Assembly (NCBI RefSeq): GCF_024323335.1
Contig: NC_066583.1
Coordinates: 417,768,031-417,832,030 of the forward strand
Direction of reading: 5' to 3'
Source of the DNA: Lathyrus oleraceus
Lineage: Eukaryota; Streptophyta; Magnoliopsida; Fabales; Fabaceae
Length of the DNA stretch: 64,000 nt
Shown here one piece after another: positions 11,279-60,461 of this stretch. Under the pieces are notes generated by a model, which ran no database searches, had not been told where the DNA came from, and saw only the letters and a program-made list of their open reading frames with translations. Made by a program: the position numbers and the translations under genes. Position 1 is the stretch's first letter. Each line of letters begins with the position of its first letter.

Positions 11279-13038
11279 ATGCATGTCCAACTTCATGATT
11301 TTAATTACCATGCTTAATGAACTCAAAATGGTCTGGATTTTTGCATGAAGACACTTGTGCATGTTGAGAATGTGTATGAATTTTTCTGGAATTGTTGAAT
11401 GCATTTCCTATTTTATTGACAATTTCTCCCCTATTTGACATAATTGTTGACTTTTGTGACACATGATGCCATATGATTTGTGAAATTCTAATGCTTAATT
11501 GGATGGACTTGAAATTTGACATGTGGATTGTAGACATCTTAAAGTTTTTCATGGTTTTAGTCCCATTCATTTATCATGTGTTGTTTCTGTTTTATGATTA
11601 ATTGAAGTTGGTGTATGTTTTGATGCTTTGTATGAGTATGCTTGAACTTGCTTTGACTTTCTGATTTTCATTGACCTACTTCCTTTGATCCAAATGAGCT
11701 GAAATTTGGTATGCCTATCATGTTGTGGATGATATTTAATCATGATTTATTTGAGGATTTATTGAAATGTTTGTAATTGAATTTGAGTTGAGACATTCTG
11801 TTGACTTCTTTGAGGTTCTATATGCCATGCTTTGACCTAATTTGCTTGTGAAATGATAATGATGAATGATGTGAATGTGAAACCACTTGGGTTTGTTTAT
11901 TGATTGATTTATCTTGACTTTGGACACTTGTCACTTGCTGTTTTAAATTTGTTATCTCCTTTTGACCCTAGGCTGGTCCTAGTGGTCTTGTTACTCATGT
12001 TTAAGCTTGGTTTTTCAGGTTAAGCAACAAAGGCTTCAAAGAGATCAATACAAGTTGAATGAATTTGATTGTTTATCATGAACTAACTTGTTTGTTTTGT
12101 AGGTTGCTTAGCTCACTTGTTATGAGCTTGTGCTTTGCACATATGCTTGACTGTATTGTCTGTTGGCTTATGCTGTTTGTTTTAACTTTGTGTCTGGTAT
12201 ACTAATTGTGCTTGACTGATTTCAGGTACTTTATTTGCTATTAGTTCTTTGAGAACTTTGCTTTGCTTTGCTTGATAGCAATTTGCATTGAGGTATAACT
12301 TCCTTACTTCATGTAGTCTGGAAGACCTGGCCTGTTACTTGGCCAGGCACCTGTCTGAAGTCCTCCTTAAGAGGCAATGTTTGTGACTGTTTACTTTTGT
12401 CCTTGCACATATTCAAAGACCTCCTAAGTGAAGAGGCATTGGCAGATACAAGGGATGTGCAATCCATCCCCTGCTATTCTGTGTGTCATCTGCTTTGCTC
12501 ACACCACTGTGTTGATGCATTGCAGATACTAACCCAAGATCTTGTACAGTTGTACAGTTGAGTCAGTGTCAAATGTGTAGAAGGGTTCCCACTTTCTGAA
12601 CCCACACATTCTTGTCTTAAGCTCTCCCAGGCCAGGGATAAGAGCTGTGAAGTCTCATCTTCACTCACCTTTCATCAGCTTCACCCTAACTCTCAATGTT
12701 AGGGTTAAGAGCTAACACTACCCAGTTACAGTGGTTTGTTTGTTGAGGTTGATATGACCCCTCGACTAAAACCTAACCTTGATTGAGCCCATTGATTACA
12801 TATAGTGCGTGCTATTTGTGCTTGTGTGTTTGCTTTAGCTTGCTTCCTGTGCAAGATAGGTTTTGTTTGGCTTGCTTCCTGTGCAAGTCATGTTTAGGAT
12901 AGGCTTGCTTCCTGTGCAAGTTAGCTAGAAACCATAACTTAGGGATGAATTTGCATGATAACATCTAGGCTCGAGTCGTAGTCTCCCTAGTTGTGTCTCC
13001 CTCTGTTATCTGGTTAAGCTAGTCCTGTATCCCTGCGT

Positions 13039-13131
13039 AGGGGAACTACGTCGCCCTGATCCTCATACCAGATGAGGTACGTAGGCAGGAGATGAGCTGA
13101 TCTCTCCGGGCGCCCTTTTTCTTTTTCAACC
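13039..13131 (+). other. 93-bp block conserved between Ogre LTRs
   Basis: This stretch is identical by eye to 45043-45135 in the E1 LTR, although the flanks differ strongly. The E2 3' LTR copy (39187 onward) has two differences. A recognisable relative (gaactacg ... tcctcat ... atacgtaggca) occurs in the E4 LTR near 56070-56130. It lies in the likely R/U5 part of the LTR; function unknown. Confidence 0.7.
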
Positions 13132-13159
13132 TTTGTGTTTCAACCCCCTTGTGTGTGTT

Positions 13160-13291
13160 TTGGTTCGGATGTTGATGTAAGTCCAGTGATTGGCATTCGG
13201 GCTCCACGTTTGCCTTTTTGTATGTGTTTTGGTTCGGATGCTGATGTAAGTCCAGTGATTGGCATTCGGGCTCCACGTTTGCCTTTGCCTG
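13160..13291 (+). repeat. Two-copy 69-bp tandem repeat in the E2 LTR
   Basis: Two consecutive copies of a unit containing ggttcggatg...gtaagtccagtgattgg, starting at about 13162 and 13231. A related unit (gtaagtccagcgattgg) occurs about five times in the E1 LTR (45150-45425), so copy number differs between elements. Confidence 0.75.
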
Positions 13292-13771
13292 TGTTTGTTT
13301 GTGTGCGTGTCAGCCGAGCTATGAATGCTCTGATTCTTCTTCGTCCAAGAAGATACGTATGCATAGGATGCGATATCCTAGCGAGCATGTGTCGTTTCCC
13401 CAGTCCGAACTACTTAGACTCTGATGTCTATGCTAGATAGACTAAGTAGGCCCAGGATGCGATATCCTGCCGAGTTAGTCTTGTTTGTTTCCTTGTGTCT
13501 CTTTCAGCCTGTGTAGATGTTTGTGAGCAGTGTTTTAGCAACCATTTTCCCTTCCTTTTGTGCGTGGATCCCGTCGAGTACGACGGATGCGTAGGGGTGC
13601 TAATACCTTCCCTTCACATAACCGACTCCCGATCCCATTCTCTTTGGTCGCGAGACCATGCTTTTTCCAGGTTTACTCTGAGCGTTTCCTTTCCCTCTTT
13701 TGGGATAAATAACGCACGGTGGCGGCTCTGTTGTTCTTGTTTCCCGCCGGTTTTTCGCGTAATGCGACAAC

Positions 13772-14585: not shown

Positions 14586-16226
14586 ATGGCAACAGTCCCA
14601 GAGCCGAAGCGGAAGACCTGTTCCTACAGCTTTCATCGTGAGCCGTTGACTTCATTGATCGAGTTGAGTAGCCTGATAACCAGTGGTAACCAGAAGGGGT
14701 TTATTGACCAGTTTGGGGATATTCTGACGCTGTTGAAGATGGTAGTCGATCCGGTGCCGTTGCAGACTCTTCTTCAGTTCTATGACCCAGAGCTTCATTG
14801 TTTCACCTTTCAAGATTATCAGTTGGCGCCTACTCTCGAGGAGTATTCCATTGTGCTGAGTGTCCCGATTCAGCATTAGGTTCCTTTCTTGGACGTACCG
14901 AAGGAAGTTGATTTCAGAGCTGTTGCCAGAGCTCTCCAGTTGAGTGTCAAAGAAGTCTGTGATAACTGGAAGCCCAGTGGGGATGTCGTGGGTTTGCCGT
15001 TGAAGTTTCTGCTGAGAGTTGCCAGAGGAGAAGCAGAGAAGGGGAATTGGGAAGCTTTTCATGCCCAGCTTGCTGTTATGATCTATGGGATCGTCCTATT
15101 CCCAAGCATGCCCAATTTTATCGACTATGTTGCGGTCTGTATCTTCATTGGAAGGAATCCAGTTCCTACTCTTTTAGCTGACACTTACTATGCTATTCAC
15201 AGTAGGCATGGTAAGGGTGGAGCTATCAGATGCTGTCTACCTCTCCTACTCAGATGGTTCATGTCTCTTCTGCCAGCCAGTGGACCCTTTGTGGATGCTC
15301 AGAGTACTCATAAGTGGACTCAGAGGGTCATGTCGCTTACCGCTTATGACATCAGATGGCAGTCATACCGGATGGATGTGCGGGATGTTGTTATGAGTTG
15401 TGGAGAATTTCGGAACGTGCCACTCGTGGGGACCAGAGGTTGCATAAATTATAATCCAGTTCTTTCTCTTCGTCAGTTAGGGTTTGTAATGAAGGGAAGA
15501 CCACTTGATGCTGAGGTAGCTGAAAGTGTGTATTTTGAGAAGCAGAGTGACCCGGCTAGATTGGAACAGATAGGAAGAGCTTGGAGGTCTATTGGAGTTA
15601 AAGATGGAGCTGTCTTAGGGAAGAAGTTTGCCATTGCTATGCCTGATTACACTAATTGGGTAAAGAAGAGAGTGGAAACTTTGTTGCTACCCTACGACAG
15701 GATAGAGCCGTTGCAGGAGCAACCCCCCTTGGTCCTTGCTGAGAGTGTGCCTGCTGAGCACTATAAGCAAGCCCTGATGGAGAATCGCTGGTTGAGAGAG
15801 AAGGAGCAAGATACCCAGATGGAGCTCTACAAAGCCAAAGCTGATAGGTTGCACTTGGCCCATCAACTCAGGGAAGTGCAAGGAGAGGATGCTAGTAGAG
15901 TGAGAAGCAAGAAGAGATCCTACGAAGAAATGGAATCCATGTTAGATGCAGAACACCGGGAGTGTTTGAGGCTGCAGAGAGCTGAAGCCAGCTACCAGAA
16001 AAAGATCAGAGACTTGGAGAAGCAACTCAGAGACAAAGACGTCCAGTTGAAGAAAGAGGTAGATTTGAGGCGGACATCAGAGGAATACCTTGGAGGAGAA
16101 GTTTTGGAGCTTAGAAGACAATTGAAGGAGAAGATCACCCCTCTTCCAGAATGTTCAGAGTGCACACTGGTGATAGACCAGTGCCAGTACCTGAAGACTC
16201 TCATTCCGGAAGACCGTTTGTCTTAG
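14586..16226 (+). pseudogene. Ogre ORF1 (E2), one premature stop
   Basis: The extra ORF upstream of gag that is typical of Ogre elements, 546 codons if the stop is ignored. The ATG at 14586 is the first in a frame that stays coding. TAG at 14877-14879 interrupts it after 97 codons; the same frame resumes immediately and runs to TAG at 16224-16226. The N-terminal ~300 residues are globular and resemble the plant DUF7745-type domain seen in Ogre ORF1 proteins (family assignment from memory, moderate confidence). The last ~150 residues are a charged coiled-coil region and match the E1 copy at 3-455 closely. Function unknown. Confidence 0.8.
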
Positions 16227-16443: not shown

Positions 16444-16815
16444 CACTATGGCAAAAATGACTTTTAACAGCGCATCTTAGACAGCGCTTTTAAAAGAAAG
16501 CGCTGTCTAAGGTTAAAATTAAAATAAAGCGCTGAAAATGTTCCAAGAAAATACTAAAAGCGCTGTCTAAGGGGGGGTCTTAGACAGCGCTTTTTAAAAG
16601 CGTTGTCTAAGACCCCCCCTTAGACAGCGCTTTTAGTAAGCGCTTTTAAATATAGACCTTAGACAGCGCTTTTGATAAAGCGCTGTCTAAAGTCTTTAAA
16701 TAAAAAAAAAATTAAAACCAAAAGCGCTGTCTAAGGGGGGGTTTAGAAAGCGCTTTTAGAAAGCGCTGTCTAAGGCATACCTTAGAAAGCGCTTTCCACA
16801 AAAGCGTTGTCTAAG
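16444..16815. repeat. Left terminal and subterminal repeats of CACTA
   Basis: After the terminal repeat come about a dozen copies of the 13-16 bp motif gcgctgtctaagg or its complement cttagacagcgc, in mixed orientation and often paired head to head around T- or A-rich loops. Runs of seven C or G occur between some pairs. Confidence 0.85.
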
Positions 16816-17953
16816 GTCTAATTAAAATAAAATTTTTTGCATTTTCGTTCTCAGTACGTATTTTTGTTTTCCCTCTTCTTCACTCACCTCTCAGACACCC
16901 AAAACACGTTTTTTCCTTCAACGTTCGAAAACCCTATTTTTTCCTCCGCCGTCACCCAAACAAGCGACCGCCGCCGTTTCCGCCACCGTTTCCGCCACCG
17001 CACGCACTCCTCATCTCAACAATCTCAACAATCTCAACAATCTCAACCCTATTTCAACGTTCGAACTGGTATGTTTCAAGATACTTCTTTTTCTTTTTTA
17101 TTGTTTTTCCTGTGTTTGTGTGTTTTTTCTGAGCATATATATAAAGTTAAGAGTGGATTTTGGGAATGAGGGAATTTGTGTATAAGGTTAAGAGTGATGA
17201 TGGGAATGAGGGAATTTTTCTGAGCATATATATAAGTATGTTTCAAGATACTTCTTTTTCTTTTTTCACAGCAGTGATGATGTGGATTACAAATACATAA
17301 GGTTAAGAGTGGAATTTGGGAATGAGGGAATTTGTGTATGTATGTATACTGAACATATAAAATGCAATGTTAATGATAGTTGGTGATTTGGGAATGAGGG
17401 AATTTGTGTATGTATGTATATTGAGTTGTGTATGTATATGTGTATGCAATTTGATTTTCTTTATACTTGCTTGGTATGCATGATGAATTTTGAAATGCAT
17501 TGCATGTTGGGGCTGTCATGACTAGGCTTGGATTTAGATGTTCAATATTGTTCAAACTTCATGTTTCCTTAGTGATTATACTTGAAGATTGAATAGGTAG
17601 TTTTTTTTCTTTTTAACTGTGAAAGTGTTATTCATCTCACTTTCATGCTAAAGGAACAAGATTTCTCCCATAAAATGATTGAACGAACTCTAATATAGTT
17701 ATAGGTATAGTTATAGGTATATTGTAATAGAAAAAGTTTGATTCTTGTAATATAAAAAATGAAAGTGATGAGGTAATTAAAGTTGGTATATTGGCGTATC
17801 GGATACGTTATTGAAGTTTATATTAACATTGGTTATGTATAGGTTTTTGAAGTTTAAAATGAATTAAAGCTTATAATTGTTAGGATATTCAAAGATACTA
17901 CCTTAGCTTATAATTGTATGGATTAATTGTTTACTTTAATAAGTAGGAAAACC
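16816..17953 (+). other. 5' region of the CACTA transposase gene
   Basis: No conserved ORF. A CT-rich and CCG-rich stretch (16850-17060) looks like a 5' untranslated exon. A possible donor (ctg/gtatgt, 17069) and acceptor (tag at 17944-17946), just before the transposase ATG, would define an 878-bp 5' UTR intron. This is inference and needs transcripts. Confidence 0.35.
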
Positions 17954-20900
17954 ATGGATAAAACATGGATCTGTGCCGATCGAATGACCAAAGAGTACGA
18001 GAGTGGGGTTTTGGAATTCGTTAAGTATGTTGTTCAACACGCTGAAAACCCCAGACGAATGCATTGTCCTTGCTTGCGTTGTTGTTATATTGGTAAGGTT
18101 GACGCACATGGATTGAAATCGCATTTGCTGAGGCATGGAATTGATCAAAGTTATCAGTGCTGGATATTTCATGGTGAGAAAATTAACGAGAATGTTGAAT
18201 CGAGTGGAAAAAGTAATACGACCTATGCTTCATACGACAAAGACACGGAAACATACGATTGTGATCGAGTTGAAGAGATTGTAGAAGCACTGGAAGAAGA
18301 TCTTCATGATTGTCCTGAAATGTTTGAGAGGATGGTAAGCGATGCAGAGAAACCGTTGTACAACGGTTGCACTAAATTCTCAAGACTTTCTGCGGTATTA
18401 AAGTTGTACAACTTAAAGGCGGGCAATGGATGGTCGGATAAAAGTTTCACAGAGTTGTTGGCCCTTATGAGAGAAATGCTACCGGATGATAATGTTCTTC
18501 CTAATCGAACCTATGAGGCAAAAAAAATGTTGTGCTCTATTGGCATGAGCTATGATAAGATACATGCTTGTCCTAACGATTGCATTTTGTTTCGTAACGA
18601 ATATGCAATGTTAACTGAGTGCCCTAAATGCGGTTTGTCTCGATATAAGAAAAGATTATCTCCCGCAAAAGTCTTATGGTATTTTCCGATAATTCCGAGA
18701 TTTAGGCGCATGTTTCGTAGTGAAACCGATGCAAGACATCTTACTTGGCATGCAGATGAAAGAATTATTGATGGAATGTATCGGCATCCGGCTGATTCAC
18801 CACAGTGGTCGAAGATTGATAATGATTATCCTGAGTTTGGATCAGAAGCAAGAAACCTTCGATTGGCATTATCTACTGATGGAATGAACCCACATGGTCT
18901 TCAAAGTATCTCACATACCACATGGCCTGTGATTCTTATGATTTATAACCTACCTCCGTGGCTATGTATGAAGCGTAAGTACATGATGTTATCTATGTTA
19001 ATCTCTGGGCCTAAACAACCAGGGAATGACATAGACGTATACTTGACACCTCTGATCGAAGATTTAAAGATTTTGTGGGAGAACGGTGTGGAGGTTTATG
19101 ATGGATATAGGAAAGAAAGTTTCAATTTAAGGGCGATGTTGTTTGGCACAATTAATGATTTTCCAGCATACGGGAATCTATCTGGGTATAGCATTAAAGG
19201 TCAACGTGCGTGTCCTGTTTGTGAAGACGGAACCGATACGATTCGATTGGAACTTTGCCAGAAGAATGTGTTTCTCGGTCATCATAGATTCTTACATTCT
19301 AAACATCACTACCGTGGGTGGAGAAAAGCATTCAATGGAGACACCGAACATCGTAGAGCTCCACCCGCATTGTCAGGTGAACAAGTTTTTGAAAAGGTGA
19401 AAGATGTGCGTACTGAGTTTGGCAAGCCTGTTGCACATAAGATTGTGAAAGGTGGGTGGAAGAAAAGGTCGATATTTTTTGAATTGCCATATTGGAAGTC
19501 TTTGTACGTGAGACATTTTCTCGATGTTATGCATATTGAAAAAAACGTATTTGAAAGTGTTATCGGTACATTACTCAATATAAAAGGCAAGTCTAAGGAT
19601 GGCCTTAAAGCAAGGGAGGACATGTTAAAAATGGGAATGAGAACTGAATTAGCACCCGTGAAGAAAGGAACACGAACATATCTACCACCTGCTGCTTTTA
19701 CTTTATCTAGAAAGGAGAAAAAAAATTTGTGTAAGTCTCTGAGTGAAGTTAAGGTTCCAGAAGGATACTCATCTGATATCAGAAGACTTGTTTCTATGAA
19801 AGACCTCAAGTTGAAGAATTTGAAGACACATGATTGCCATGTTATAATGGAACATTTTCTACCGATAGGTATACGTTCTATTTTGCCAGAAAAAGTAAGA
19901 AGTGCCATAACTAAATTGTGTTTTTTCTTTAGGTCAATTTGTAGTAAGGTGATCGATCCCGAGATCTTACCAACACTACAAAAAGAGATTGTAATTACCT
20001 TGTGTGAGCTTGAAATGTATTTTCCTCCGTCTTTTTTTGACATAATGGTTCATTTAGTTGTTCATCTTGTGAAAGAGACACAGTTGTGTGGACCAGCTTA
20101 TATGAGATGGATGTACCCTGCTGAACGGTATATGAAAATATTAAAAGGGTACGTGAAATCCCGAAGTCGACCAGAGGGTTGTATTGTTGAACGATACATT
20201 GTTGAAGAAGCTGTTGAGTTTTGTACTGAATATTTGTCTAACGTTCAATCGATTGGACTCCCCAGAGCTCAGATTTTCGACAAAATGGAAGGTAAAAAAT
20301 TAATTGGGAATAAAATTGTGACAATATCAAGGGATGAACGGGATCAAGTTCATTTGTATGTTCTGCACAATAATAATGAGGTTGAGCCATATGTTGAAAT
20401 GCACAAGGATGTACTCCGAAGGTTAAATCCGAACAGAAATGAAAATTGGATAGTTATAGAGCACAATCAAAGTTTCATACAATGGTTGAAGGATCATATT
20501 TATTTGAAGCGCTCTTTAGATCCTTCTTCGGTAACAGAAAGGTTGAGATGTTTGGCATATGGTCCAAGTTTGCATGTGTTTTCTCATAGCGCATATTCAA
20601 TTAATGGATACACATTTTATACCAAAGAACAAGATGATAAGAGTACTATGCAAAATAGTGGTGTCACCGTGCTAGCTGAAGCAATGCATATATCAAGTAT
20701 GAAGGACTTAAACCCCAAATATGCAAATTTGTCCTATTTTGGAGTTATTGAGCACATTTGGGTGTTTGATTACGAGAAGTTTCAGATTCCCATCTTTGGT
20801 TGCAAGTGGGTGAATAGTAGTGGCATACGAATGGATAAGTCTGGATTTTTGCAAGTTGATCTTACTAGGGTGGGGTACAAAGATGAACCTTTTATTCTAG

Positions 20901-21127
20901 CATCTCAAGCTAAACAAGTGTTCTATGTGAATGACCCGAAGAGTACAAAATGGTCTATAGTGCTTTTCTCTAACAAAGTGACTGATGATAGCGGTGTCGA
21001 TCAATGTGATATTGATGTTGAGAATGAGTCACGCATTAGACGGAATGAGTTGAATAGAAATGATGAAGTTGAGGATCTTATACCGGATGAGTCATATATA
21101 AGAAACGATCATAATGAGGGAATTTGA
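17954..21127 (+). CDS. CACTA transposase, TNP2 type
   Basis: A 1057-residue protein in one uninterrupted frame. The ATG at 17954 starts with MDKTWI, like other TNP2 proteins; the frame is open slightly further upstream. Domains in order: transposase-associated zinc-binding domain (about 1-75, with CPCLRC and a HLLRHG motif), CHC/CPKC zinc motif near residue 220-235, the tnp2 catalytic domain (about 265-480, with the STDGMNPHG motif at Asp309 and a CPVC motif), a DUF4218-like domain (about 650-780) and a DUF4216-like domain (about 930-1010). It would cut and paste the CACTA element in the nucleus. The frame continues past the TGA at 21125-21127 for 23 more codons ending in a basic KKRKRC tail at 21197-21199, so the TGA may be a late nonsense change removing a nuclear localisation signal. 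Confidence 0.92.
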   Translation: MDKTWICADRMTKEYESGVLEFVKYVVQHAENPRRMHCPCLRCCYIGKVDAHGLKSHLLRHGIDQSYQCWIFHGEKINENVESSGKSNTTYASYDKDTETYDCDRVEEIVEALEEDLHDCPEMFERMVSDAEKPLYNGCTKFSRLSAVLKLYNLKAGNGWSDKSFTELLALMREMLPDDNVLPNRTYEAKKMLCSIGMSYDKIHACPNDCILFRNEYAMLTECPKCGLSRYKKRLSPAKVLWYFPIIPRFRRMFRSETDARHLTWHADERIIDGMYRHPADSPQWSKIDNDYPEFGSEARNLRLALSTDGMNPHGLQSISHTTWPVILMIYNLPPWLCMKRKYMMLSMLISGPKQPGNDIDVYLTPLIEDLKILWENGVEVYDGYRKESFNLRAMLFGTINDFPAYGNLSGYSIKGQRACPVCEDGTDTIRLELCQKNVFLGHHRFLHSKHHYRGWRKAFNGDTEHRRAPPALSGEQVFEKVKDVRTEFGKPVAHKIVKGGWKKRSIFFELPYWKSLYVRHFLDVMHIEKNVFESVIGTLLNIKGKSKDGLKAREDMLKMGMRTELAPVKKGTRTYLPPAAFTLSRKEKKNLCKSLSEVKVPEGYSSDIRRLVSMKDLKLKNLKTHDCHVIMEHFLPIGIRSILPEKVRSAITKLCFFFRSICSKVIDPEILPTLQKEIVITLCELEMYFPPSFFDIMVHLVVHLVKETQLCGPAYMRWMYPAERYMKILKGYVKSRSRPEGCIVERYIVEEAVEFCTEYLSNVQSIGLPRAQIFDKMEGKKLIGNKIVTISRDERDQVHLYVLHNNNEVEPYVEMHKDVLRRLNPNRNENWIVIEHNQSFIQWLKDHIYLKRSLDPSSVTERLRCLAYGPSLHVFSHSAYSINGYTFYTKEQDDKSTMQNSGVTVLAEAMHISSMKDLNPKYANLSYFGVIEHIWVFDYEKFQIPIFGCKWVNSSGIRMDKSGFLQVDLTRVGYKDEPFILASQAKQVFYVNDPKSTKWSIVLFSNKVTDDSGVDQCDIDVENESRIRRNELNRNDEVEDLIPDESYIRNDHNEGI

Positions 21128-21423
21128 ATCAATTCATCCGTACGCATTGCTAAGAAACAAGTGATTAATATTCCAACAAAGAAAAGAAAGAGATGTTAGT
21201 GACTTAGGTAAATTATCCATGGTTTCTTTATTTTTTGTTTTCATTTGTTTTGATTATAAGTTATATGTGGTAATGCATGATTTCATTATATTTTTGTATT
21301 CAATTGCTTTGATTATAAGTTATATCTGATAATGCATGATTTCTTTATTTTTTGTTTTCAATTGTTTTGATTATAAGTTATATTTGATATTTGATGGTTT
21401 CCTTGGTTTATTACAGGTTAGAC
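21128..21423 (+). other. Intergenic region of the CACTA element
   Basis: The first 72 bp continue the transposase frame (see that entry). The rest has three imperfect copies of a ~60-bp AT-rich unit (ttgattataagttatat... at about 21250, 21310 and 21367), then the start of the second gene. No other gene is visible. Confidence 0.55.
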
Positions 21424-24400
21424 ATGGCTGATGACCAACATGAGGAAGTTAGTAAAGTATCCGCGGAAGAAGAAATTCGAAGAGGCATCACAGTAATGCG
21501 AAGGGTGGTCCAAGGAAGATCTCGAGGCATCATACTAGATGTCTCTTGGAACAACCAGGGACAACTTATAGAACCTAATGGGCATACCTTAACTAGTTTC
21601 ATCGGTGCACTAGTAAGGAATGAAATTCCCATTACATGTGATGATTGGAGAAATAAAGAGTTGAAAGAGTCCAAAGAAAAAATTTGGAGTGAGATAAAGG
21701 TAAAATCATTTGGCCCTTAATTATACGGTATCAATTATGTTTTTTCAATTACCGATACTAACTATCAATCTGTATGTTTTTCTTAGCGATGTTTTAACAT
21801 CGAAGAAGAAAGAAGAGGGTTTTGTATGAAATTGGCCGGAAAGCTTCTTAGAGGGTTTCGGACATTTTTATCATCCAAGTTCCTTAAGGATGCGGATGGT
21901 AATTTTGTGGATGCGGAGCTTCCTAGAAAATATGAAAGTTTGATATCGGCTGAAGAATGGGAAGCTTTCAAATCCAAAAGACAAGACCCGACTTTTCAAA
22001 GAATAAGTGCTACAAATCAGGAAAGAGCATCAAGTCCCGCATATCCGTACCGAAAAGGACGTGTCGGATATGGACGCTTAGAACAATCCATGGTAAGTAT
22101 TTATAAATTGCGAAAACAAATTTGTTCATCATATATTAGTTTTATCTGATCAAATTGTATGACTTAATGTGTAGCTGCAGAAGGAGGAAAGTTCAGAAAC
22201 ATCTCTTCCTGCACATGTTTTGTGGAAGGAAGCCCGTGTGGGCAAATCTGGAGTTCCTCAAGAAGACATTTTAAACGTATACCAGAAATGTGTAAGTATA
22301 ACATTTTTTCATTAATTGAATAACATTTTTATACACAAATATTTGACAAGTATACGGTATTCATCTGATTTTTCAGGAGGAGCTATCTCAGACTCTATCT
22401 CCCGATGATACTAAGAACATACTTAGTCGGGCATTAGATGTCCCTGAGTATTCTGGTCGGGTGAGGGGTAAGGGATTTGGAGTCACTCCGACCTCCCTCA
22501 GTGTTAAAAAAGGAAAGGCTCCTAGTAATCGGGAGCTTCATGCAAGATTGGAAGCCATGCAAGCTGAGCTTGATGCATTGAGGAGAGAAAGAGATGCTAG
22601 CGCCTCAACGGTATACAGAGATGCTTCGGACAAAAACAGTATCAACTGTACCTTTCAACCGAACATTCCAGAGGTAATTACATATAATTGTCTTAAATTG
22701 AACTATTTGCTTAATTTTGGTATTTGACATATATACACATTAACGATTTCTTGTTATTATTGGTTTTAGGGCATTTCCCATTGTCAGCTGTATTTGTCGT
22801 CACCATACTATCGGATGGTTGGCAAGGGAAAAGTGCATAACGTTAGCGGAGTATTACTCCACACTAGAGAGCTCCCTGCTGGATGTTTGAAGGTATCAGT
22901 TGATATTGCAGTTGACCCGAATGCAGCATTACCATATCCTAGCGATGATTCGGATGCAACAACGGTGCACGAAGCAGTAGGTTCGTTTGTTGCATGGCCG
23001 ACAAACCTCATATGCGTAGGATATGAGGTATGCTTAAAACTTATGTTAACTTTAATGTGTATATTCAAAGTTTAAAATTTATGCTTAAAATTTTACTTAC
23101 ATATTTTCCTTGATTATGTTAAATAGACTCCCACAAAATCCAAATCAAGAAAAGAGGTAATATACAATTATATGACATATATTCATGGAAGTTGTTACAT
23201 TCTTAATTTGATCTAACTATTTATATGACATGTAGGTTCAAGAAAATGAGGTTAGCAATGCCTCCGCACAACAAATAAAGGAGGTTAGGAACGCCTCCGC
23301 ACGGGTAAAAAGTTCTGGTGCTAAGAAGACCGTAGCTAGGAAAAAACCTACCACCAAGTATAGGTCGTGCCTCAGGACATTTATAGAGATGACCGATATA
23401 CCGACCGGAGGTGTTCGGACTATACATATGGAGGAAGGGATTTTCGGCTTTGCTCACGACCAAATGATTGGTAATGAAGACTTCATGCAAGTTTTTGGTC
23501 ATGAAGAAATCGGCGTCAACATTGTCAATACATATATTAGGTAAATCCGGTCTACTTTGTTTTATTAATTAAACAACTTATGTTAATGATGTTTACTTTA
23601 TGTTAATCCGGTTTACTTTATGTTTCAAAAGAGGTGTTAATGATGTTTTTATATTAGGTTTTTGTATGACAAAATGATGCGCCCCAATGATTTGGACGAG
23701 TCATTCGGATTCTTAGCACCCGCGAGCATCAACTTAGGTTTAATCTTAAATAGACCGGATACCGTGACGGAGTACGTTCTTCGGATCCTCAATGACAATA
23801 AAGATGCGGAGAAGTTGTTTTTTATACCGTTTAATACCGGGTATGCATTTCATTCTAAATTCATCTATTATAATTATTTTCCAAGTTACCATCTAACATT
23901 TGCCTAATCATTACAGTGGACATTGGTTGTTGCTCGCAATCAATCCTATCCGAGAGATTGTGTATTATCTTGACTCGTTAGGAAATGATTGGGCAACATA
24001 CCCGGATATGAAGTTCCTAATTGACACGTAAGTGAGAATGTTCAAAAATTTTCTTAGTTTATGTGAATTGTTCTAATTGCTTCATTTTTATTTTATTAGC
24101 ATCCTACAAGCTTTTCGGGCCCAACGAGATATCCAAACCTCAAGGAGGGGCGCCAACCGCATTACATGGATTAAAGTGGCGGTATAATTTTAATTACCAC
24201 ATTTTTTATTATATTAGTGATGATACTTGATAAAACTTAGGATTTATAATCCATATTTTTTTTTCATGTAGTGTCCTCAACAACGTAATCAAATAGATTG
24301 CGGGTATTTCGTGTTGAGGTTTATGCGGGATACTCTTGCTTTGGGCCGATTAGTGATTCCCACCGATGTATGTATTTCTAACTTATGACTTATTTTTATA

Positions 24401-24567
24401 TTTACACATATCTCATTTAATTAAATAGTTGGAATTAATTCAAAATATGTTATATTATTATGTAGTACTTTGAGGAATTCAAGTGTGCATTTTATACAAA
24501 GGATCAAGTGGACGAAATCAAAGAGGAGTGGTGTCAATTCATGATAGAGCTCAAAGTTTTTTCATAA
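21424..24567 (+). CDS. CACTA second gene with C48 (Ulp1-like) protease domain
   Basis: Twelve exons joined by eye with GT-AG borders: 21424-21699, 21787-22092, 22175-22291, 22377-22673, 22770-23027, 23127-23156, 23236-23540, 23658-23840, 23917-24027, 24100-24181, 24272-24367, 24466-24567. They total 2163 nt, a 720-residue protein with no stop. The N-terminal half resembles the En/Spm-associated plant transposase family (conserved HVLWKEAR and GFGVTP motifs), with a short coiled coil and a DUF8039-like segment in exon 5. Exons 8-12 form a cysteine protease of the C48/Ulp1 (SUMO protease) type with GHW (His), YYLDSLG (Asp) and QIDCGYF (Gln, Cys). Whether it removes SUMO or acts in transposition is unknown. 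No key residue is missing. Confidence 0.85.
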
Positions 24568-24879
24568 ATTTGTGTAATTAATGTGTACATTTGTAGTATA
24601 TGTAATGACTTGTAAATGTGTACATTTGTAGTATATGTAATGACTTGTAAATGTGTACATAAATTTGTATATATTTTGATACATTTAAGTCAAAATTGGT
24701 TTGAATTGGTATATATATATATTTGTTAGCCAAAAATTGGTAGAAAAAAGGCCAAAATGGCATGTATAAAATGTGATAACTGTCTGTCAAAATCTGGTTG
24801 AAAACAGGTAGAAATTCTGGTTTATAAACCTGGAAAAAATATGGTTTAAAACAAAAGCTACAAAAATTTTCGTATACAT
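24568..24879 (+). other. 3' flank of the CACTA second gene
   Basis: AT-rich sequence with a tandem duplication of about 42 bp (gtgtacatttgtagtatatgtaatgacttgtaaat, from about 24580) and a short TA run at 24712-24722. It probably holds the 3' UTR and polyadenylation signals. No gene. Confidence 0.55.
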
Positions 24880-25369
24880 TAGACAGCGCTTTTGGAAAAA
24901 GCGCTGTCTAAGGGGGGTCTTAGAAAGCGCTTTAGGCAAAAGCGCTGTCTAAGGGGGGGGGGGCTTAGACAGCGCTTTATGAAAAGCGCTGTCTAAGCCC
25001 CCCCTTAGACAGCGCTTTTGCCTAAAGCGCTGTCTAAGGTATACCTAAAAAAATTAAAATAGGGGGGGCTTAGACAGCGCTTTTTGAAAAGCGCTGTCTA
25101 AGCCCCCCCTATTTTAATTTTTTTAGGTATACCTTAGACAGCGCTTTTGCCAAAAGCGCTGTCTAAGGTATACCTAAAAAAATTAAAATAGGAGGGTCTT
25201 AGAAAGCGCTTTAGGCCAAAGCGCTGTCTAAGGGGGGGGGGGCTTAGACAGCGCTTTTAAGATTTCAAAAAGCGCTGTCTAAACCTTTAGCAGCGGAGGT
25301 TTAGACAGCGCTTTAAAGCGCTGTCTAAGGCTAAAAAAAGCGCTGTCTAAGGTCTTGTTTGGCGTAGTG
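24880..25369. repeat. Right subterminal and terminal repeats of CACTA
   Basis: About 18-20 copies of the gcgctgtctaagg motif in both orientations, many arranged as back-to-back inverted pairs separated by poly-G/poly-C runs, ending in the terminal repeat and TAGTG. It includes the 61-bp perfect palindrome listed separately. Confidence 0.85.
25024..25147. repeat. 61-bp perfect inverted repeat with 2-nt spacer
   Basis: Arms 25024-25084 and 25087-25147 are exact reverse complements (checked base by base), with only tg between them. Each arm contains two subterminal motifs around an AT-rich centre and a run of seven G or C. It could form a cruciform or, if transcribed, a dsRNA hairpin. Confidence 0.9.
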
Positions 25370-32822: not shown

Positions 32823-33854
32823 GAGGGATTAAAGCGAAGACTACAGTCTGAGTTATCTGTACTTCATCGCGCTTCATTATCTGCCATCTCGAAAGATGTG
32901 ATCGGTCCAGTCAGTCTTCTCAGAATGCAAGGAAAAATGAAAAAAAAAATTGATGATCTATGAGTTATAACAGAGTTGGGAAACAGTGGATGCCGTGTTC
33001 ACATTGCCATTAGGATAGTTTATTTTCCTTTTTTGTGCAATTACCTCTTCCTAGGAATTGCTTCCCAATGTATTTGCCTTTTCAGGCACATTTTCAATCA
33101 ATAAAAGTCGTTATTCAGATAAATAGCTCTTTGTTTTTATTTTTACTGTTTTGTTTGCAAAAACGTCCGAATTTTTGATAAACATTGCATATAAAAACAT
33201 GAAGGCTGAGCAATCACTTGCATAAAGATAAAACATTTGAAAATCATTTTGAATGTTGAGGACACTTGAGCGTATCTTGTCCATGTATCCCCTGGGGGCA
33301 TTGGTTGTTCTGTTTTGCAGGTCGTCATTTGTGAGCGTTCCCCAGCAGTTATTTCCCAGAGCAGAGTTTATCCTACTTGTGGATTGGTTGGGCTCTCCCT
33401 AGTGAAGTCGCCTGTTTGTCCCTAGCGAGTCACTTTATTAATCCCCGGCGAGTTGCTTTGTTGTCCCCCAGTGGATTTGTATTGATGGTGTCTCGGCGCA
33501 GTCGTCCTGCGTGTTCCCCGGCGGGTTGTTCATCCTTTGCATTTTGCATATAGTGATCATTGCATCATCAAACTGCGTAGCATTCCCATTCCATATGGAG
33601 CATTACGCCATAGAAAAATTCAAACATATGCATTCATGTGTTAACCTATCAGACTGAATCCCCAGCAGAGGCGGATCATTTTGTTCAACATCGGTACAGC
33701 ACGTTTGCTACAGTTGCTCCTGACAACATTCAGGATTGATATCCCCACAGAGGTTTATTTCCTCACCCGTCCGCGAATGGAAAGCTTGCTTCTCCCCAGT
33801 AAGATCCTCAGCAAGTGGTCAGCCTTGCCTTGACGTACTTAAGATGTCATTCTT
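32823..33854 (+). other. 3' UTR of E2 with primer-site-complement motifs
   Basis: No gene. From 33330 to 33680 there are many variants of the complement of the element's primer site: TCCCCAGCAG (33339-33348), TCCCTAGTGAAGTCGCC (33396-33412), TCCCTAGCGAGTCAC (33419-33433), TCCCCGGCGAGTTGC (33442-33456) and the exact 12-mer TCCCCAGCAGAG (33659-33670). The segment 33540-33680 aligns with 40035-40190 of E1. Confidence 0.65.
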
Positions 33855-35025
33855 GTGATACCGGTAGGTGTCATTTCAGCACCCGCGTGTGTTCTTTGTT
33901 TGGTGTCGGTAAACACCATTGTTTCGGTGTCGGTAAACATCGAGTCCCACCCCAGTCATCGGTAAATGTCTGGTCATTTTTTGGATGTCGGTAAACATCA
34001 TCTTTCGATGTCGGTAAACATCGAGTCCCACCCCAGTCATCGGTAAATGTCTGGTCATTTTTTGGATGTCGGTAAACATCATCTTTCGATGTCGGTAAAC
34101 ATCGAGTCCCACCCCAGTCATCGGTAAATGTCTGGTCATTTTTCGGATGTCGGTAAACATCATCTTTCGATGTCGGTAAACATCGAGTCTCATTCCAGTC
34201 ATCGGTAAATGTCTGGTCACCTTTGTTTGATGTCGGTAAACATCATCTTTCGATGTCGGTCAACGTCGAGTTTTTCCAGTCATCGGTAAATGCCTGATAA
34301 TCCCCAGCTATAGATCCCCAGTAGAGTCGTCGGTAAACGTCCTGTCTGGTTTCTGGTGGCAGTTTTGTTTTTCCTTCCCCAGTGAAGTGTTCACCTCTCC
34401 GTTGGTGTCGATAAACGTCGAGCCTCTCCCGTTCGTCCGTTGACGTCTGGTCGAGTATTTCCCCAGTCATCGGTAAATGTCTGGTCGTTTTTTTGGATGT
34501 CGGTAAACATCATCTTTCGATGTCGGTAAACATCGAGTCTCATCTCAGTCATCGGTAAATGTCTGGTCGTGCGTTATTTTCTTGTTGATAAAACCAAGAT
34601 CCCCAAGAGTCGTCAGTAAACGTCTTGTCTGATTCCATTACAAATATATCTTTTCCCCCCAAGTAGACACCATCGGTAAATGGTCCCGTTTGCTTCGATA
34701 TCGGTAAATATCGAGTTCCCAGTTTTATCCGCCATCGGTAAATGGCCCTGTTTTCTTCGATATCGGTAAATATCGAGTTCCATGTAGAGCAGCCATCGGT
34801 AAATGGTTTTGTTGAAGTTGATATCGGTAAATGTCAAGTTTCTTTGAAAGCCACCATCGGTAAATGGTCTTGCTTCCTTTTAATATCAAGATGTTTCCCA
34901 GCAGCCATCGGTAAATGGTCTCGCTGAAATTGATATCGGTAAATATCAAGTTTCCAGTATCTAGCCATCGGTAAATGGTTTTGCTTGCCTGAAGTTGTCG
35001 TGCAGCCGTCATTAGTAAATGACTT
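33855..35025 (+). repeat. Hairpin array with CGGTAA loops in the E2 3' UTR
   Basis: About 30-33 short inverted repeats sharing a loop CGGTAA. The left half has units of 81 bp (for example gatgt at 33984, 34065 and 34146) with stems such as TGGTGT/ACACCA (33901-33918), TCGATGT/ACATCGA (34005-34024) and CCAGTCAT/ATGTCTGG (33952-33973, one T-T mismatch). The right half alternates nCCAT/ATGGn (ACCAT 34669, GCCAT 34731) with TyGATAT/ATATCrA (34695-34714, 34930-34949). Stem changes are compensatory. The unit length is a multiple of 3, which explains the spurious ORFs on the other strand. Confidence 0.85.
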
Positions 35026-35158: not shown

Positions 35159-38100
35159 TGTAGCACCTGAAATTTGCACCTACCTTTTGTACATACATTC
35201 TCATATTAGGTCATTAACATAACATAGTCCATAGCATAGCATTGCATTGTCCTTTGCCCAAGTGCAAGTCCTTTGCCCAAGTGCAAGTCCTCTGACAAAT
35301 TAGGTCAAACCAGTCAATCAAGCAAGCAAGTGCAATTTCCATTGAGACAAGGACCTAGGGTTGGTCCAACATGTTCACATGACCTAGGGGTCCTTTTGAA
35401 GTGATTTGGTCAAGGATTGGGTGCTCAGAAGTCATCAGTCATTGTTCAGTCCATCAGAAGCCCTAGAAAGTCAACTATGGTCAACTATGGTCAACTGTGC
35501 TTGATTTTATGGATTTGAAGGTGGGAGATGGTTTGAAAGGGTTCATTCATGTCCATACAAGTCTCATTTGTCATTTCAAAGATCAAGATTGGAGAAAATA
35601 AAGTCAGACAAGAAGTTTCCTAAAATGGTAAGTTGACCTGTAATTGGGAATTGCCAAAAATAGAAAGTTTTTCTCCTCAAATTTACATCATCATACAAGC
35701 TTCAAATTAAATTTTGTCCAACATGAAAGTTGAAGATCTTGCTCTCACCTTTCCAAAAAGTCCAAGAACACTCATTTATCATTTATGGTTGGAAAGTTAT
35801 GATCAAATCATTCTCAAAAGTTTTTGAACTTCAAAGTGGCATATCTTCCAAACCATTTGGCCAAATTGAGTGAGGTTTTTTGCTACAAGTCACATTTGAT
35901 ATGCTCTATCCAAATCCTTCATCACAATTTACCAAAAATCATCCAAGCAAAATGGCCTTTTTCAAGTGGCATGAATTAAAAAGAGAGAGGTGAAAAAATG
36001 AGCTTTCAAATTAAACATTTCCAATGCTTTTTACCATTTGCAATTGTTCAGAAATCATATTTGGGGTATGCCTAAGCCCATTTTCGTGCATTAACATGCA
36101 CCCCATGCATTTTTGGTTGGTTTTTAGCAAATTGGCAAAATACTTCATTTAAGCTAAAACCAATTACCATTACACTAACCACACTTAAGCATTACTAATC
36201 AGAGTATATAGTGCACATTTTCAGTCTGAAAACCCTAGCCACAACACACAAACCAGATCAAAATTCATTTTCTCTCAAGAACACTATATTCTTCACTTGG
36301 TTTTTTTTTCTGAAAATCTTCAAAGAACCCTTGCTATTGTCCATCGTGCCATCATTCACCAACATTTGTGAAGCCATTGCCATCAAATCACGACTGTAAG
36401 GCCAAGATCATTACTGTTCCATTAAGCTTTCTCTCATGGCAGTTCAAATTTTGAGCTAAATCAAGGCAGCTGAGCTCCAAATCCATTGTCCATTCATCAA
36501 TACCAACCTCCATGCGCATCTGTTTTAGCTTTCCACGGCCACAAAACCACAAATCATCACTGTTCTTCAAGCAAGGTAAAAATTCGAATCACATCTTTGT
36601 CCAAATCGTGCTATGCTTCTTGTAGATCTTTGTGCCATGAATGTATTGAGCTTTGAATCGAGGGAAACGGTTGAGTATTAAGGAAGAAACATGGAATTTA
36701 AGTTTGTTGGCCAAATGTGTTATTGCTTATTTCTTTGTTGTTAGTTCGAATTAATAAAAACTAAGGTTGGATTTGTGATGTGCGTGCTTAGATGGTTCGA
36801 ATGCTATACTCACTCCCAAGATCTGGGAAATTTGTTCATCACGATGATGAACATGTCACTGTAGCTCGAAACCCTAAAATGTCTTAAACAGGTCGTGTTT
36901 TGGCTGCTGAGATTTTCTGTTTTGCATGTTTGCACTATTTCATTGCCATGAAGCGTATCAGAGGACGCCACCTCACTAAGTGAAACGCAGTGTTTCACTT
37001 AGTGAGTCACAATATTACAATTATGCCATTCCCGGTTTTTTATTTTAATTAATTCAATTGCTTTTTCATTATTTATTTCATTTTGGCATGGCAACTTAGA
37101 AAAATCATAAGTTCTTCAATTTTAATCCAATCTTGGTGGGATTTTTTGTGGATTGCTTCCCTTGATCTCTAGTTTTTTATGATGATTTTTCCAGATTTTT
37201 TGCACGTGTGGATTTTAAAATGTGCTAGGGTTTGTTCATGTTGTCCATTTTGTGTATGCCTTGCCAAATTGCTTGTGAAATGATGATACATTATCCAATG
37301 ATTCTCAAATTTTTTGTGCTTAAACTAGACATGTTCATGGTGATTATGGTGTAGAGTTTGTAATTTTATCATTGCTGGTTGTGGAGATATGATTTTTTGA
37401 ATAGGGGTGTGACAATTTGTGTCACACCATGCATGTCCAACTTCATGATTTTAATTACCATGCTTAATGAACTCAAAATGGTCTGGATTTTTGCATGAAG
37501 ACACTTGTGCATGTTGAGAATGTGTATGAATTTTTCTGGAATTGTTGAATGCATTTCCTATTTTATTGACAATTTCTCCCCTATTTGACATAATTGTTGA
37601 CTTTTGTGACACATGATGCCATATGATTTGTGAAATTCTAATGCTTAATTGGATGGACTTGAAATTTGACATGTGGATTGTAGACATCTTAAAGTTTATC
37701 ATGGTTTTAGTCCCATTCATTTATCATGTGTTGTTTCTGTTTTATGATTAATTGAAGTTGGTGTATGTTTTGATGCTTTGTATGAGTATGCTTGAACTTG
37801 CTTTGAATTTCTGATTTTCATTGACCTACTTCCTTTGATCCAAATGAGCTGAAATTTGGTATGCCTATCATGTTGTGGATGATATTTAATCATGATTTAT
37901 TTGAGGATTTATTGAAATGTTTGTAATTGAAGTTGAGTTGAGACATTCTGTTGACTTCTTTGAGGTTCTATATGCCATGCTTTGACCTAATTTGCTTGTG
38001 AAATGATAATGATGAATGATGTGAATGTGAAACCACTTGGGTTTGTTTCTTGATTGATTTATCTTGACTTTGGACACTTGTCACTTGCTGTTTTAAATTT

Positions 38101-39917
38101 GTTATCTCCTTTTGACCCTAGGCTGGTCCTAGTGGTCTTGTTACTCATGTTTAAGCTTGGTTTTTCAGGTTAAGCAACAAAGGCTTCAAAGAGATCAATA
38201 CAAGTTGAATGAATTTGATTGTTTATCATGAACTAACTTGTTTGTTTTGTAGGTTGCTTAGCTCACTTGTTATGAGCTTGTGCTTTGCACATATGCTTGA
38301 CTGTATTGTCTGTTGGCTTATGCTGTTTGTTTTAACTGTGTCTGGTATACTAATTGTGCTTGACTGATTTCAGGTACTTTAGTTGCTATTAGTTCTTTGA
38401 GAACTTTGCTTTGCTTTGCTTGATAGCAATTTGCATTGAGGTATAACTTCCTTACTTCATGTAGTCTGGAAGACCTGGCCTGTTACTTGGCCAGGCACCT
38501 GTCTGAAGTCCTCCTTAAGAGGCAATGTTTGTGACTGTTTACTTTTGTCCTTGCACATATTCAAAGACCTCCTAAGTGAAGAGGCATTGGCAGATACAAG
38601 GGATGTGCAATCCATCCCCTGCTATTCTGTGTGTCATCTGCTTTGCTCACACCACTGTGTTGATGCATTGCAGATACTAACCCAAGATCTTGTACAGTTG
38701 TACAGTTGAGTCAGTGTCAAATGTGTAGAAGGGTTCCCACTTTCTGAACCCACACATTCTTGTCTTAAGCTCTCCCAGGCCAGGGATAAGAGCTGTGAAG
38801 TCTCATCTTCACTCACCTTTCATCAGCTTCACCCTAACTCTCAATGTTAGGGTTAAGAGCTAACACTACCCAGTTACAGTGGTTTGTTTGTTGAGGTTGA
38901 TATGACCCCTCGACTAAAACCTAACCTTGATTGAGCCCATTGATTGCATATAGTGCATGTTATTTGTGCTTGTGTGTTTGCTTTAGCTTGCTTCCTGTGC
39001 AAGATAGGTTTTGTTTGGCTTGCTTCTTGTGCAAGTCATGTTTAGGATAGGCTTGCTTCCTGTGCAAGTTAGCTAGAAACCATAACTTAGGGATGAATTT
39101 GCATGATAACATCTAGGCTCGAGTCGTAGTCTCCCTAGTTGTGTCTCCCTCTGTTATCTGGTTAAGCTAGTCCTGTATCCCTGCGTAGGGGAACTACGTC
39201 GCCCTGATCCTCATACCAGATGAGGTACGTAGGCAGGAGATGAGTTGATCTCTCTGGGCGCCCTTTTTCTTTTTCAACCTTTGTGTTTCAACCCCCTTGT
39301 GTGTGTTTTGGTTCGGATGCTGATATAAGTCCAGTGATTGGCATTCGGGCTCCACGTTTGCCTTTTTGTGTGTGTTTTGGTTCGGATGTTGATGTAAGTC
39401 CAGTGATTGGCATTCGGGCTCCACGTTTGCCTTTGCCTGTGTTTGTTTGTGTGTGTGTCAGCCGAGCTACGAATGCTCTGATTCTTCTTCGTCCAAGAAG
39501 ATACGTATGCATAGGATGCGATATCCTAGCGAGCATGTGTCGTTTCCCCAGTCCGAACTACTTAGACTTTGACGTCTATGCTAGATAGACTAAGTAGGCC
39601 CAGGATGCGATATCCTGCCGAGTCAGTCTTGTTTGTTTCCTTGTGTCTCTTTCAGCCTGTGTAGATGTTTGTGAGCAATGTTTTAGCAACCTATTTCCCT
39701 TCCTTTTGTGCGTGGATCCCGTCGAGTACGACGGATGCGTAGGGGTGCTAATACCTTCCCTTCGCATAACCGACTCCCGATCCCATTCTCTTTGGTCGCG
39801 AGACAATGCTTTTTCCAGGTTTACTCTGAGCGTTTCCTTTCCCTCTTTTGGGATAAATAACGCACGGTGGCGGCTCTGTTGTTCTTGTTTCCCGCCGGTT
39901 TTTCGCGTAATGCGACA
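35159..39917 (+). repeat. 3' LTR of E2
   Basis: 4759-bp copy of the 5' LTR (9027-13769). Differences noticed include a 20-bp tandem duplication (cctttgcccaagtgcaagt, about 35262-35290), a C/G change near the start and scattered single-base changes, roughly under 1% by eye. It ends GCGACA followed by gttcc. Confidence 0.93.
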
Positions 39918-40364
39918 GTTCCCAGAGTGTCAGATCAGCAAAGCACTCCCAGCAGTGCGTCTCCCCACAGAGTTGGAGGATCAAATCAGAGTTGTTCGCT
40001 CGGAAGCGATCGTGTGCTTTCCCAGCAGGAGTTCTCCTCCATTTGCATTTTGCATGTAGTAATCATCATTTGCATCTTCAAATTGCGTAGCATTTCCATT
40101 TAATATGGAGCATTACGCCATAAAAACTCAAACATATGCATGCATATGTTACACCAGATTGGATCGAATCCCCAGCAGAGGCGGATCATATTTCAACATC
40201 TGTATGAAACATTTGCAACAGTTGTTCCTGACAGCATTCAGGACTAATAATCCCCAGAGAGGTTTATCTCCTCACTTGTCCGTGAAAGGAAAGTTTGATT
40301 GACTCCCCCAGCGTAGTCCCTGGCAGGTGTCTGCCCTGTCTTGACAAATGAAGATGTCATCATT
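39918..40364 (+). other. 3' UTR of E1 after the E2 insertion
   Basis: No gene. It contains cccagcag motifs and the exact 12-base primer-site complement TCCCCAGCAGAG (40169-40180), aligned with 33659-33670 of E2, in a segment that also keeps the atatggagcattacgcca block (about 40104). Confidence 0.6.
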
Positions 40365-41325
40365 GTGATACCGGTAAGTGTCGCATCAACACCCGTGTGT
40401 GTTCTTTTTTCGGTATCGGTAAACATCATCTTTCGATGTCGGTAAACATCGAGTCTCATCCCAGTCATCGGTAAATGTCTGGTCTTGTTTCATTTCTAAA
40501 CATCATCTTTCGATGTCGGTAAACATCGAGTCTCATCCCAGTCATCGGTAAATGTCTGGTCTTGTTTCATTTCTAAACATCATCTTTCGATGTCGGTAAA
40601 CATCGAGTCTCATCCCAGTCATCGGTAAATGTCTGGTTGTATATATTTTTTCCAGTCATCGGTAAATGTCTGGTCATCCCTTTTTTGGTGTCGGTAAACA
40701 TCATCTTTCGATGTCGGTAAACATTGAGTTTTTCCCAGTCATCGGTAAATGCCGGGTTGTGAAGTATTTCTCTATCAAATCCCCAGTAGAGTCGTTGGTA
40801 AGCGTTTTGTCTGTTTCCAGTTGAAAATATCTTTTTCCTCCCCAGTTGGAGTTTGCCATCGGTAAATGGTACCGTTTTCCTTAATATCAGTTGCATATCA
40901 AGTCGACTATTCCCAAGCCGCCATCGGTAAATGGCCTCGCTTTCTTCGATATCGGTAAATATCGAATGCCCAGTTCAGCCGCCATCGGTAAATGGCCTAG
41001 CTTTATGTGACATTTGTTTTCCAGCCGCCATCGGTAAATGGTCTTGCTGACTTCGATATCGGTAAATATCAAAGGTTGTTTTGAAGCCACCATCGGTAAA
41101 TGGTCTTGCTTCCTTTTAGTATCAGATCCCAGTTGAAGCCACCATCGGTAAATGGTCCCGCTTCCTTTGGATGTTGTTTCCCAGCCGCCATCGGTAAATG
41201 GCCTCGCTGACGTTGATATCGGTAAATATCAAGTTTCTAATAAAGCCGCCATCGGTAAATGACCTGACTTTCCAAAGGTTTTATTGAGCATCCGCCATCG
41301 GTAAATGGCCTTGCTTTTATTTACT
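40365..41325 (+). repeat. Hairpin array with CGGTAA loops in the E1 3' UTR
   Basis: About 25 hairpins of the same type as in E2. The left part has a 77-bp unit in about three copies (gatgt at 40435, 40512, 40589); the right part alternates nCCAT/ATGGn and TyGATAT/ATATCrA stems. Examples: GATAC/GTGTC (40367-40382) and TTCGATAT/ATATCGAA (40945-40966). Copy number and unit length differ from E2, but loop and stem logic are the same. A primer-site-complement variant lies inside it (TCCCCAGTAGAGTCG, 40780-40794). Confidence 0.85.

Positions 41326-59397: not shown

Positions 59398-60461
<1,064 letters not shown>

Follow-up and report, generated by a model that had tools for sequence, protein, structure and literature searches.

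Ogre/Tat elements are reported, in a 2009 paper by Macas in Gene, to carry hypervariable 3' UTR repeats that are a source of satellites, for example PisTR-A, which likewise comes from pea (Pisum sativum, of which Lathyrus oleraceus is a synonym). Ogre elements make up more than 20% of the pea genome according to the available part of PMC2206039, and only a subset of pea Ogre transcripts is spliced according to that of PMC6317226. The same portion of PMC6317226 gives an additional RNase H, located between RNase H and integrase, as a trait common to Ogre and Retand and, together with excerpts of PMC7004042, a 3' UTR made of tandem repeats and LTRs that reach about 5 kb as features of Ogre/Tat. 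The tandem repeats of the Ogre 3' UTR and the origin of satellites from them are known (PMC7004042 and PMC9659126, in the sections available). In the accessible parts of this literature these repeats have so far been treated as hypervariable DNA that seeds satellites, and an RNA role would give them a function.

Two nested elements and their hairpin arrays

The window, the whole 64-kb stretch of pea DNA analysed here, contains an Ogre-type LTR retrotransposon, E2 (9027-39917, + strand), recognised by an LTR pair, a GTTCC duplication on both sides (9022-9026 and 39918-39922) and its protein domains. The E2 5' LTR (9027-13769) is 98.8% identical to the 3' LTR (35159-39917, + strand), with the LTR starts shifted by one base, to TGTAGCACC. 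A domain search of the ORFs gives Gag, RT/RNase H, a second RNase H, integrase and DUF7745. The Pfam order is PF03732, PF17917 followed by PF13456 (310-383 of the RT ORF), and PF00665 in the next ORF, which places the additional RNase H between RNase H and integrase as in Ogre/Tat. An extra ORF with DUF7745, which we take to be related to the plant mobile domain, is found at 14889-16226 between the E2 5' LTR and gag, and the location of an extra ORF ahead of gag is an Ogre/Tat trait. The tandem-repeat 3' UTR and the LTRs of about 4.8 kb are likewise Ogre/Tat-like. The domains and the extra ORF are consistent with the Ogre/Tat lineage, and the name Ogre seems appropriate for E2 in view of its domain order, extra ORF, 3' UTR repeats and LTR length, together with the call made in the preliminary description of this sequence.

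A CACTA-type transposon lies within E2 between ORF1 and gag (16555-25233, ends approximate), with a tnp2 transposase ORF at 17927-21127 and repeated TTAGACAGCGCTTTT-like blocks flanking both sides. Elsewhere in the window, the two copies of a direct repeat (57642-58676 and 61847-62856), 97-99% alike and about 4.2 kb apart, enclose an 84-copy TA run at 60290-60458.

E2 is inserted in the 3' UTR of an outer element, E1. The E1 coding region is represented by the E2-like stretches at 0.8-8.2 kb of the window, and behind E2 come the remaining E1 3' UTR and then the E1 3' LTR, from about 41445. Since E2 is nested in the E1 3' UTR, the window holds two arrays, from two elements. The E2 array occupies 33854-35023 of the 3' UTR (+ strand) and lies in the last part of the RNA ahead of the 3' LTR, which begins about 135 bases past the array end. 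The E1 array (40364-41312, + strand), in the outer element's 3' UTR, has been severed by E2 from the coding region to which it belongs.

Hairpins were called by a CGGTAA loop with at most one mismatch and a stem in which four or more of the 6 pairs are canonical. E2 has 33 of them and E1 has 26 rows, among which 40411 is an overlapping pseudo-hit. The last E2 hairpin (35008-35023, + strand) comes in addition to these and has the stem GTCAT/ATGAC around TAGTAA. CGGTAA is found at 65 sites in the window, 58 on the + strand and 7 on the - strand, and the exact + strand copies within the arrays number 29 at 33907-34969 (E2) and 24 at 40372-41299 (E1). The array of hairpins around CGGTAA that the preliminary description reported is therefore real, with 29 exact sites in E2. 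Its wording of an "invariant" loop is slightly too strong, since 29 of the 33 E2 loops are exact (29 of 34 counting the TAGTAA hairpin) and four are not. Six of the seven stems it named do occur around CGGTAA; the seventh, GTCAT/ATGAC, is present in E2 only around TAGTAA, and its counterpart there around CGGTAA is CCAGTCAT/ATGTCTGG, in which pair 4 is a U.U mismatch. Both of the wobble stem forms it listed are present, one of them (34257) with the loop CGGTCA.

The hairpins have stems of 5-8 pairs and a CGGUAA hexaloop closed by U-A, and follow one another at a median spacing of 31 bases. Tandem duplication is evident as 81-, 77- and 61-bp units. The first half of the E2 array (33895-34570, + strand) contains an 81-bp higher-order unit at 33899-34296, partly recurring after 34460, with the hairpins GATGT/ACATC, TCGATGT/ACATCGA and CCAGTCAT/ATGTCTGG. 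The second half (34659-34985, + strand) has a unit of about 61 bp in which (A/G)CCAT/ATGG(T/C) alternates with T(C/T)GATAT/ATATC(G/A)A. Sense frames that overlap the E2 array stay open for 67 codons at most, so coding does not account for the pattern.

Several further features of the arrays were observed. The first hairpin of both (33862 and 40372) has a C-G closing pair, and that of E1 reads CGGTAAGTGT, which we take to be a strong 5' splice-site look-alike. The unit at 34004-34025 and similar ones, in only some of the stem families, contain ATGTCGGTA, whose reverse complement TACCGACAT has the sequence of a drought-response promoter element. Short motifs of the CCCCAG/CCCCGG type in the 3' UTR ahead of the E2 array (33250-33850) recur, by eye, in the hairpin spacers. 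The exact complement of the loop plus its closing pair, TTTACCGA, was considered as a loop kissing partner; on the + strand of the window it occurs only at 5780 and 30495, which are corresponding places in E1 and E2.

Loop constancy and pairing across pea copies

All array tests were made in pea. The first set consists of 40 loci on contig C1 (L138-L177), chosen for containing a perfect GATGTCGGTAAACATC unit among the first 100 of 22,466 places. With L170 excluded, as it has no cluster of three sites, 39 C1 loci together with E1 and E2 provide 723 units; L142/L143 and L158/L159 have near-identical units and are possible local duplicates. A blind set of 20 elements was chosen via the 201 bases behind the array, without regard to the array itself, from 39 relatives among the matches listed (40 with E2; 1,792 candidates). 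These relatives are close, at 96-98% over the 201 bases. All 20 elements contain the array, with 6-32 units each (median 22, 445 in total). The combined sample comprises 1,168 units from 61 loci (65,998 bases). Across the 41 loci with clusters, the number of units per locus ranges from 3 to 41, with some copies having 3 only.

Integrase pieces 89-98% identical to E2 are found in 29 of the 40 C1 loci, so nearly all of the evidence comes from one subfamily. Five loci have none and six, most with short pieces of 44-128 residues, match otherwise: L143, where the piece is behind the array, L156, L158, L159, L162 and L177. L156 and L162, whose integrase pieces are less E2-like, have simplified arrays with the same loop. 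In that of L156 (2680-3691) the units recur about every 39 bp and use mainly two stems; in that of L162 (2815-3121) they recur about every 61 bp, mostly with the single stem TGGTGT/ACACCA. To cover other Ogre subfamilies, two integrase proteins, P0086 and P0012, were used that share 66% and 75% identity with that of E2, and searches with them list at least 73 and at least 71 copies (213,301 and 227,557 candidates), which are 79-84% identical to the query apart from P0086's own locus. Two pattern scans of viral contigs gave 102 and 27 stretches, with a single match per locus in the 80 and 27 listed, which we take as chance, and none of the pattern matches to integrase relatives (30 in viral contigs, 212 in genome contigs) was confirmed.

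In the blind set, 97% of the 445 CGGTAA units reach a Watson-Crick count of 4 or more out of 6 pairs, versus 4.4% of 27,237 other positions. The Watson-Crick paired fraction at pairs 1-6 is 0.95, 0.98, 0.90, 0.68, 0.81 and 0.61, compared to an expectation from column composition of 0.91, 0.50, 0.49, 0.36, 0.72 and 0.25, and pairing fades at pairs 7-9. An arm fits its own partner better than the arms of other units in all 54 loci with at least 4 distinct units, with a score of 5.32 versus 4.15 of 6. The same hairpins are recovered by a structure-first scan of the 65,998 bases of the 61 loci, in which perfect 6-pair stems with loops of 4 to 9 bases number 23, 3, 437, 23, 224 and 5, versus 13-14 each in 20 home-made shuffles preserving neighbouring bases. 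The loop is CGGTAA in 372 of the 437 members of the hexaloop class (shuffle mean 14), and 188 of the 224 8-base loops are TCGGTAAA, which is what the same hairpins give when the stem is counted from one pair further out. Over the 3.795-Gb genome, GATGTCGGTAAACATC has 22,466 exact copies versus 1 for its reversed control, and three successive CGGTAA with 14-44 bases between them are found 80,057 times versus 3,560 for the reversed control. The best fold of 1,001 array bases leaves some units not formed as drawn, and when 8 units were folded singly, 2 had no greater stability than shuffles.

Covariation, wobble pairs and strand preference

The preliminary description read the stem differences as covariation left by selection on the structure of RNA or single-stranded DNA. 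The covariation test used 39 of the 59 window rows, after 18 exact duplicates, the near-duplicate 34151 and the pseudo-hit 40411 were dropped. In these 39 units 89.5% of cells are paired, compared with a shuffled value of 70.6%. The covariation score reaches 0.642 versus 0.321 shuffled, with 0 of 500 shuffles as high and slid structures reaching at most 0.174. Changes on both sides are found at all 6 pairs, a number that is not outstanding (32 of 500 shuffles reach it), and neither is that of further pair types (13 versus 13.6, reached by 421 of 500). Over the five measures, covariation thus exceeds all 500 shuffles on three.

Since the units are related, a tree null was built in which the observed number of changes in each column is placed randomly on a tree of 432 distinct units. 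Mean pairing, G.U included, is 0.870 versus 0.596 (null maximum 0.784, 0 of 500) and summed G is 1,846 versus 559 (null maximum 1,334, 0 of 500), with the reservation that this null is rough because the tree rests on the same short sequences. The result is also 0 of 500 for the 132 units found in at least 2 loci and for the 388 units without the picking unit. Taken individually, pairs 2, 3, 4 and 6 pass (p 0.005-0.015), while pairs 1 and 5 are below the tree-null threshold. Changes from one Watson-Crick pair to another on a single branch number 1, 2, 0, 1, 1 and 2 at pairs 1-6, which is above the null mean at 5 of the 6 pairs and never above the null maximum. With so few same-branch double changes, the case for selection rests on pairing and wobble and not on many independent compensations. 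The stems fall into 17 clusters at no more than 3 differences, 16 of which are paired, giving about 16 families with 27 units outside clusters. Recent duplication of two or three hairpin types, which the preliminary description set out as a competing account, is therefore no explanation, and pairing stands above the rough tree-matched null as it does above shuffles.

The scarcity of same-branch double changes over the tree null would also fit a mutational origin, in which, at the reverse transcription step, template switching or quasipalindrome correction rewrites one arm to match the other, and the outcome is then multiplied by tandem duplication. The plain tandem duplication of the array agrees with such a process, and abnormal strand transfers have been proposed as the maker of Ogre 3' UTR repeats (PMC7004042, in the part available). 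Correction of this kind should, however, erase G.U and A.C alike, whereas G.U is kept and A.C is not; a U.U at pair 4 stands uncorrected in two families (52 of 61 and 40 of 61 loci); and the nearly fixed loop between changing stems is left unexplained. We consider a purely mutational origin quite unlikely.

The wobble pairs bear on the strand. The arms of a palindrome offer the same context to C to T on one side and to G to A on the opposite side, from which we infer that G.U and A.C should arise in roughly equal numbers under neutral change. The 52 haplotypes found in at least 3 loci have G.U:A.C ratios of 16:0 at pairs 3-5 and 17:2 at pairs 1-5. Presumed post-insertion changes are those of singleton haplotypes one step off a shared one (99 of 131), and here the new mismatches are 11:15 at pairs 3-5 and 17:21 at pairs 1-5, with 19 G.U, 24 A.C and 28 other mismatches over pairs 1-6. 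The difference between shared and singleton wobble has a Fisher p of 0.00013 (pairs 3-5) and 0.0014 (pairs 1-5), values that are rough as states are inherited. All 131 singletons, inherited states included, have 52 G.U and 20 A.C at pairs 3-5. Counted by family, G.U versus A.C is 14:3, 11:3 and 10:1 at thresholds of 2, 3 and 5 loci, so that the independent wobble events are few. Genome-wide, in exact counts with both strands summed, pair 4 is A-U in 22,466 copies, G.U in 11,661, A.C in 160 and G-C in 14,438, and pair 3 of a second stem is U.G in 1,367 and C.A in 86, giving wobble ratios of 73 to 1 and 16 to 1 in which the counts are not independent events because copies inherit their states.

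Strand bias in the spacers (C to T at 21 of 75 sites versus G to A at 11 of 63; A to G at 8 of 58 versus T to C at 17 of 123) is too small to account for the wobble asymmetry. No G.U excess is seen at pairs 1 and 2, with 3:3 and 0:7 in the 723-unit set and 10:9 and 3:3 in the blind set. Pair 6 is reversed in the blind set, with 4 G.U and 61 A.C, mainly, as read from the families, in those with pair 6 outside the stem. The retention of G.U over A.C, with no such bias in the presumed post-insertion changes, points to selection on the sense RNA, and the selected strand may also be plus-strand single-stranded DNA. The earlier interpretation of selection on structure is thus supported, and the preference for G.U over A.C favours the sense strand.

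By folding energy the array shows no preference for the sense strand (-252.4 versus -261.6 kcal/mol for the complementary strand). That the complementary strand folds about equally well would be expected if the inverted repeats functioned as DNA, whether double-stranded, cruciform or as a minus-strand cDNA hairpin, serving for example as a protein site or recombination signal, and Ogre 3' UTR repeats are known to give rise to expanding satellites (PMC7004042, from the text available). Selection at the DNA level should be strand-symmetric, in contrast to the 73 to 1 and 16 to 1 counts, and minus-strand cDNA should favour A.C in + strand reading, the opposite of what is counted. The variable arms also argue against sequence-specific contact with the arms, and a role of this kind appears very unlikely to us.

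A candidate RNA signal and its known counterparts

The conservation pattern suggests that evolution kept the array as a landing strip for an RNA-binding partner. Each unit of the sense transcript would fold into a short hairpin displaying CGGUAA, and since the loop is nearly fixed, with stems that change provided pairing stays, the loop would be the recognised part and the stem a mere holder. One partner could bind many loops at once; it is probably element-encoded (Gag or the ORF1 protein), or else a host RNA-binding protein. Bound loops may tag the full-length RNA to be packaged into particles, or help the incompletely spliced RNA to be exported. The number of units varies, and the signal is therefore likely to be additive; such redundancy would tolerate the copy-number changes from which the known hypervariable tandem repeats arise. 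The fixed loop and free stem, the variable number and the position ahead of the 3' LTR all argue for a multivalent tag for a binding protein. On balance we favour, with some confidence, the array as a multivalent cis-acting RNA signal with loops read by protein for packaging or export, which would be its two leading uses.

A simple motif scan found no CCHC zinc knuckle in the E2 gag ORF. The usual nucleocapsid contact is thus not in sight, and the remaining candidate readers are ORF1, other regions of Gag and host proteins. A more specific version, in which the array would be a dedicated tag read in multivalent fashion by the element's own ORF1 or Gag, like Rev-RRE or a coat protein and its packaging signal, with hypervariable repeats and satellites as by-products, is conceivable but doubtful.

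The loop might instead be a decoy for a host factor, either U1 snRNA on GGUAA or another RNA-binding protein, whose presence would protect the long RNA against decay or premature polyadenylation. The loop does include GGUAA, which presumably resembles a 5' splice site, and the array is located upstream of a 4.8-kb 3' LTR. A strong 5' splice site carries G at the base following GGUAA, whereas the closing pair is U-A in 700 of the 723 units of the C1 set, E1 and E2, so that the base after the loop is A and not G. The binding would itself be hypothetical, and we regard a decoy as unlikely.

If the repeats are selected RNA hairpins as we favour, their function becomes testable. They would offer a handle on RNA export or packaging in giant plant retrotransposons, and a loop-binding protein could serve as an RNA-tagging tool.

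Retroviral constitutive transport elements such as the MPMV CTE are similar to the array in being cis-acting RNA structures near the 3' end of an LTR element, and possibly in helping incompletely spliced RNA to leave the nucleus. The size and architecture of the MPMV CTE differ from those of the pea array. Rfam 15 gives 0 matches at the gathering score within the window.

The described Ogre/Tat 3' UTR repeats belong to the same kind of element, lie at the same site between the coding region and the 3' LTR, and have variable monomers. Unlike the array here, they are described in the available parts of PMC7004042 and PMC9659126 as tandem DNA and a source of satellites. Palindromes, inverted repeats, secondary structure and stem-loops are not mentioned in the accessible text of PMC7004042, nor hairpins and palindromes in that of PMC2206039 and PMC9659126, nor hairpins in that of PMC6317226. 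Among the listed matches in the open-licence literature on Ogre and plant LTR retrotransposons, as represented by titles and the starts of abstracts, the hairpin array is undescribed. With no description found, the hairpin nature of the Ogre 3' UTR repeats appears to be new, while the tandem repeats themselves are known. For Ty1 and Ty3, the available part of PMC4974528 states that neither the sites bound by Gag nor the packaging sequences have been clearly defined.

The array shares with the dispersed packaging signals of single-stranded RNA viruses (PMC6281560) and of HBV (PMC7612645), as far as the excerpts of these sources go, the presence on one RNA of many stem-loops with a short motif in common, and as in arrays of packaging signals the stems are free. 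The viral signals are spread over the genome and bound by coat protein, in contrast to the pea hairpins, which form a tandem array in the 3' UTR of a plant retrotransposon. By analogy, and on the portion of PMC6281560 available, multiple packaging signals would be the closest known system in working principle.
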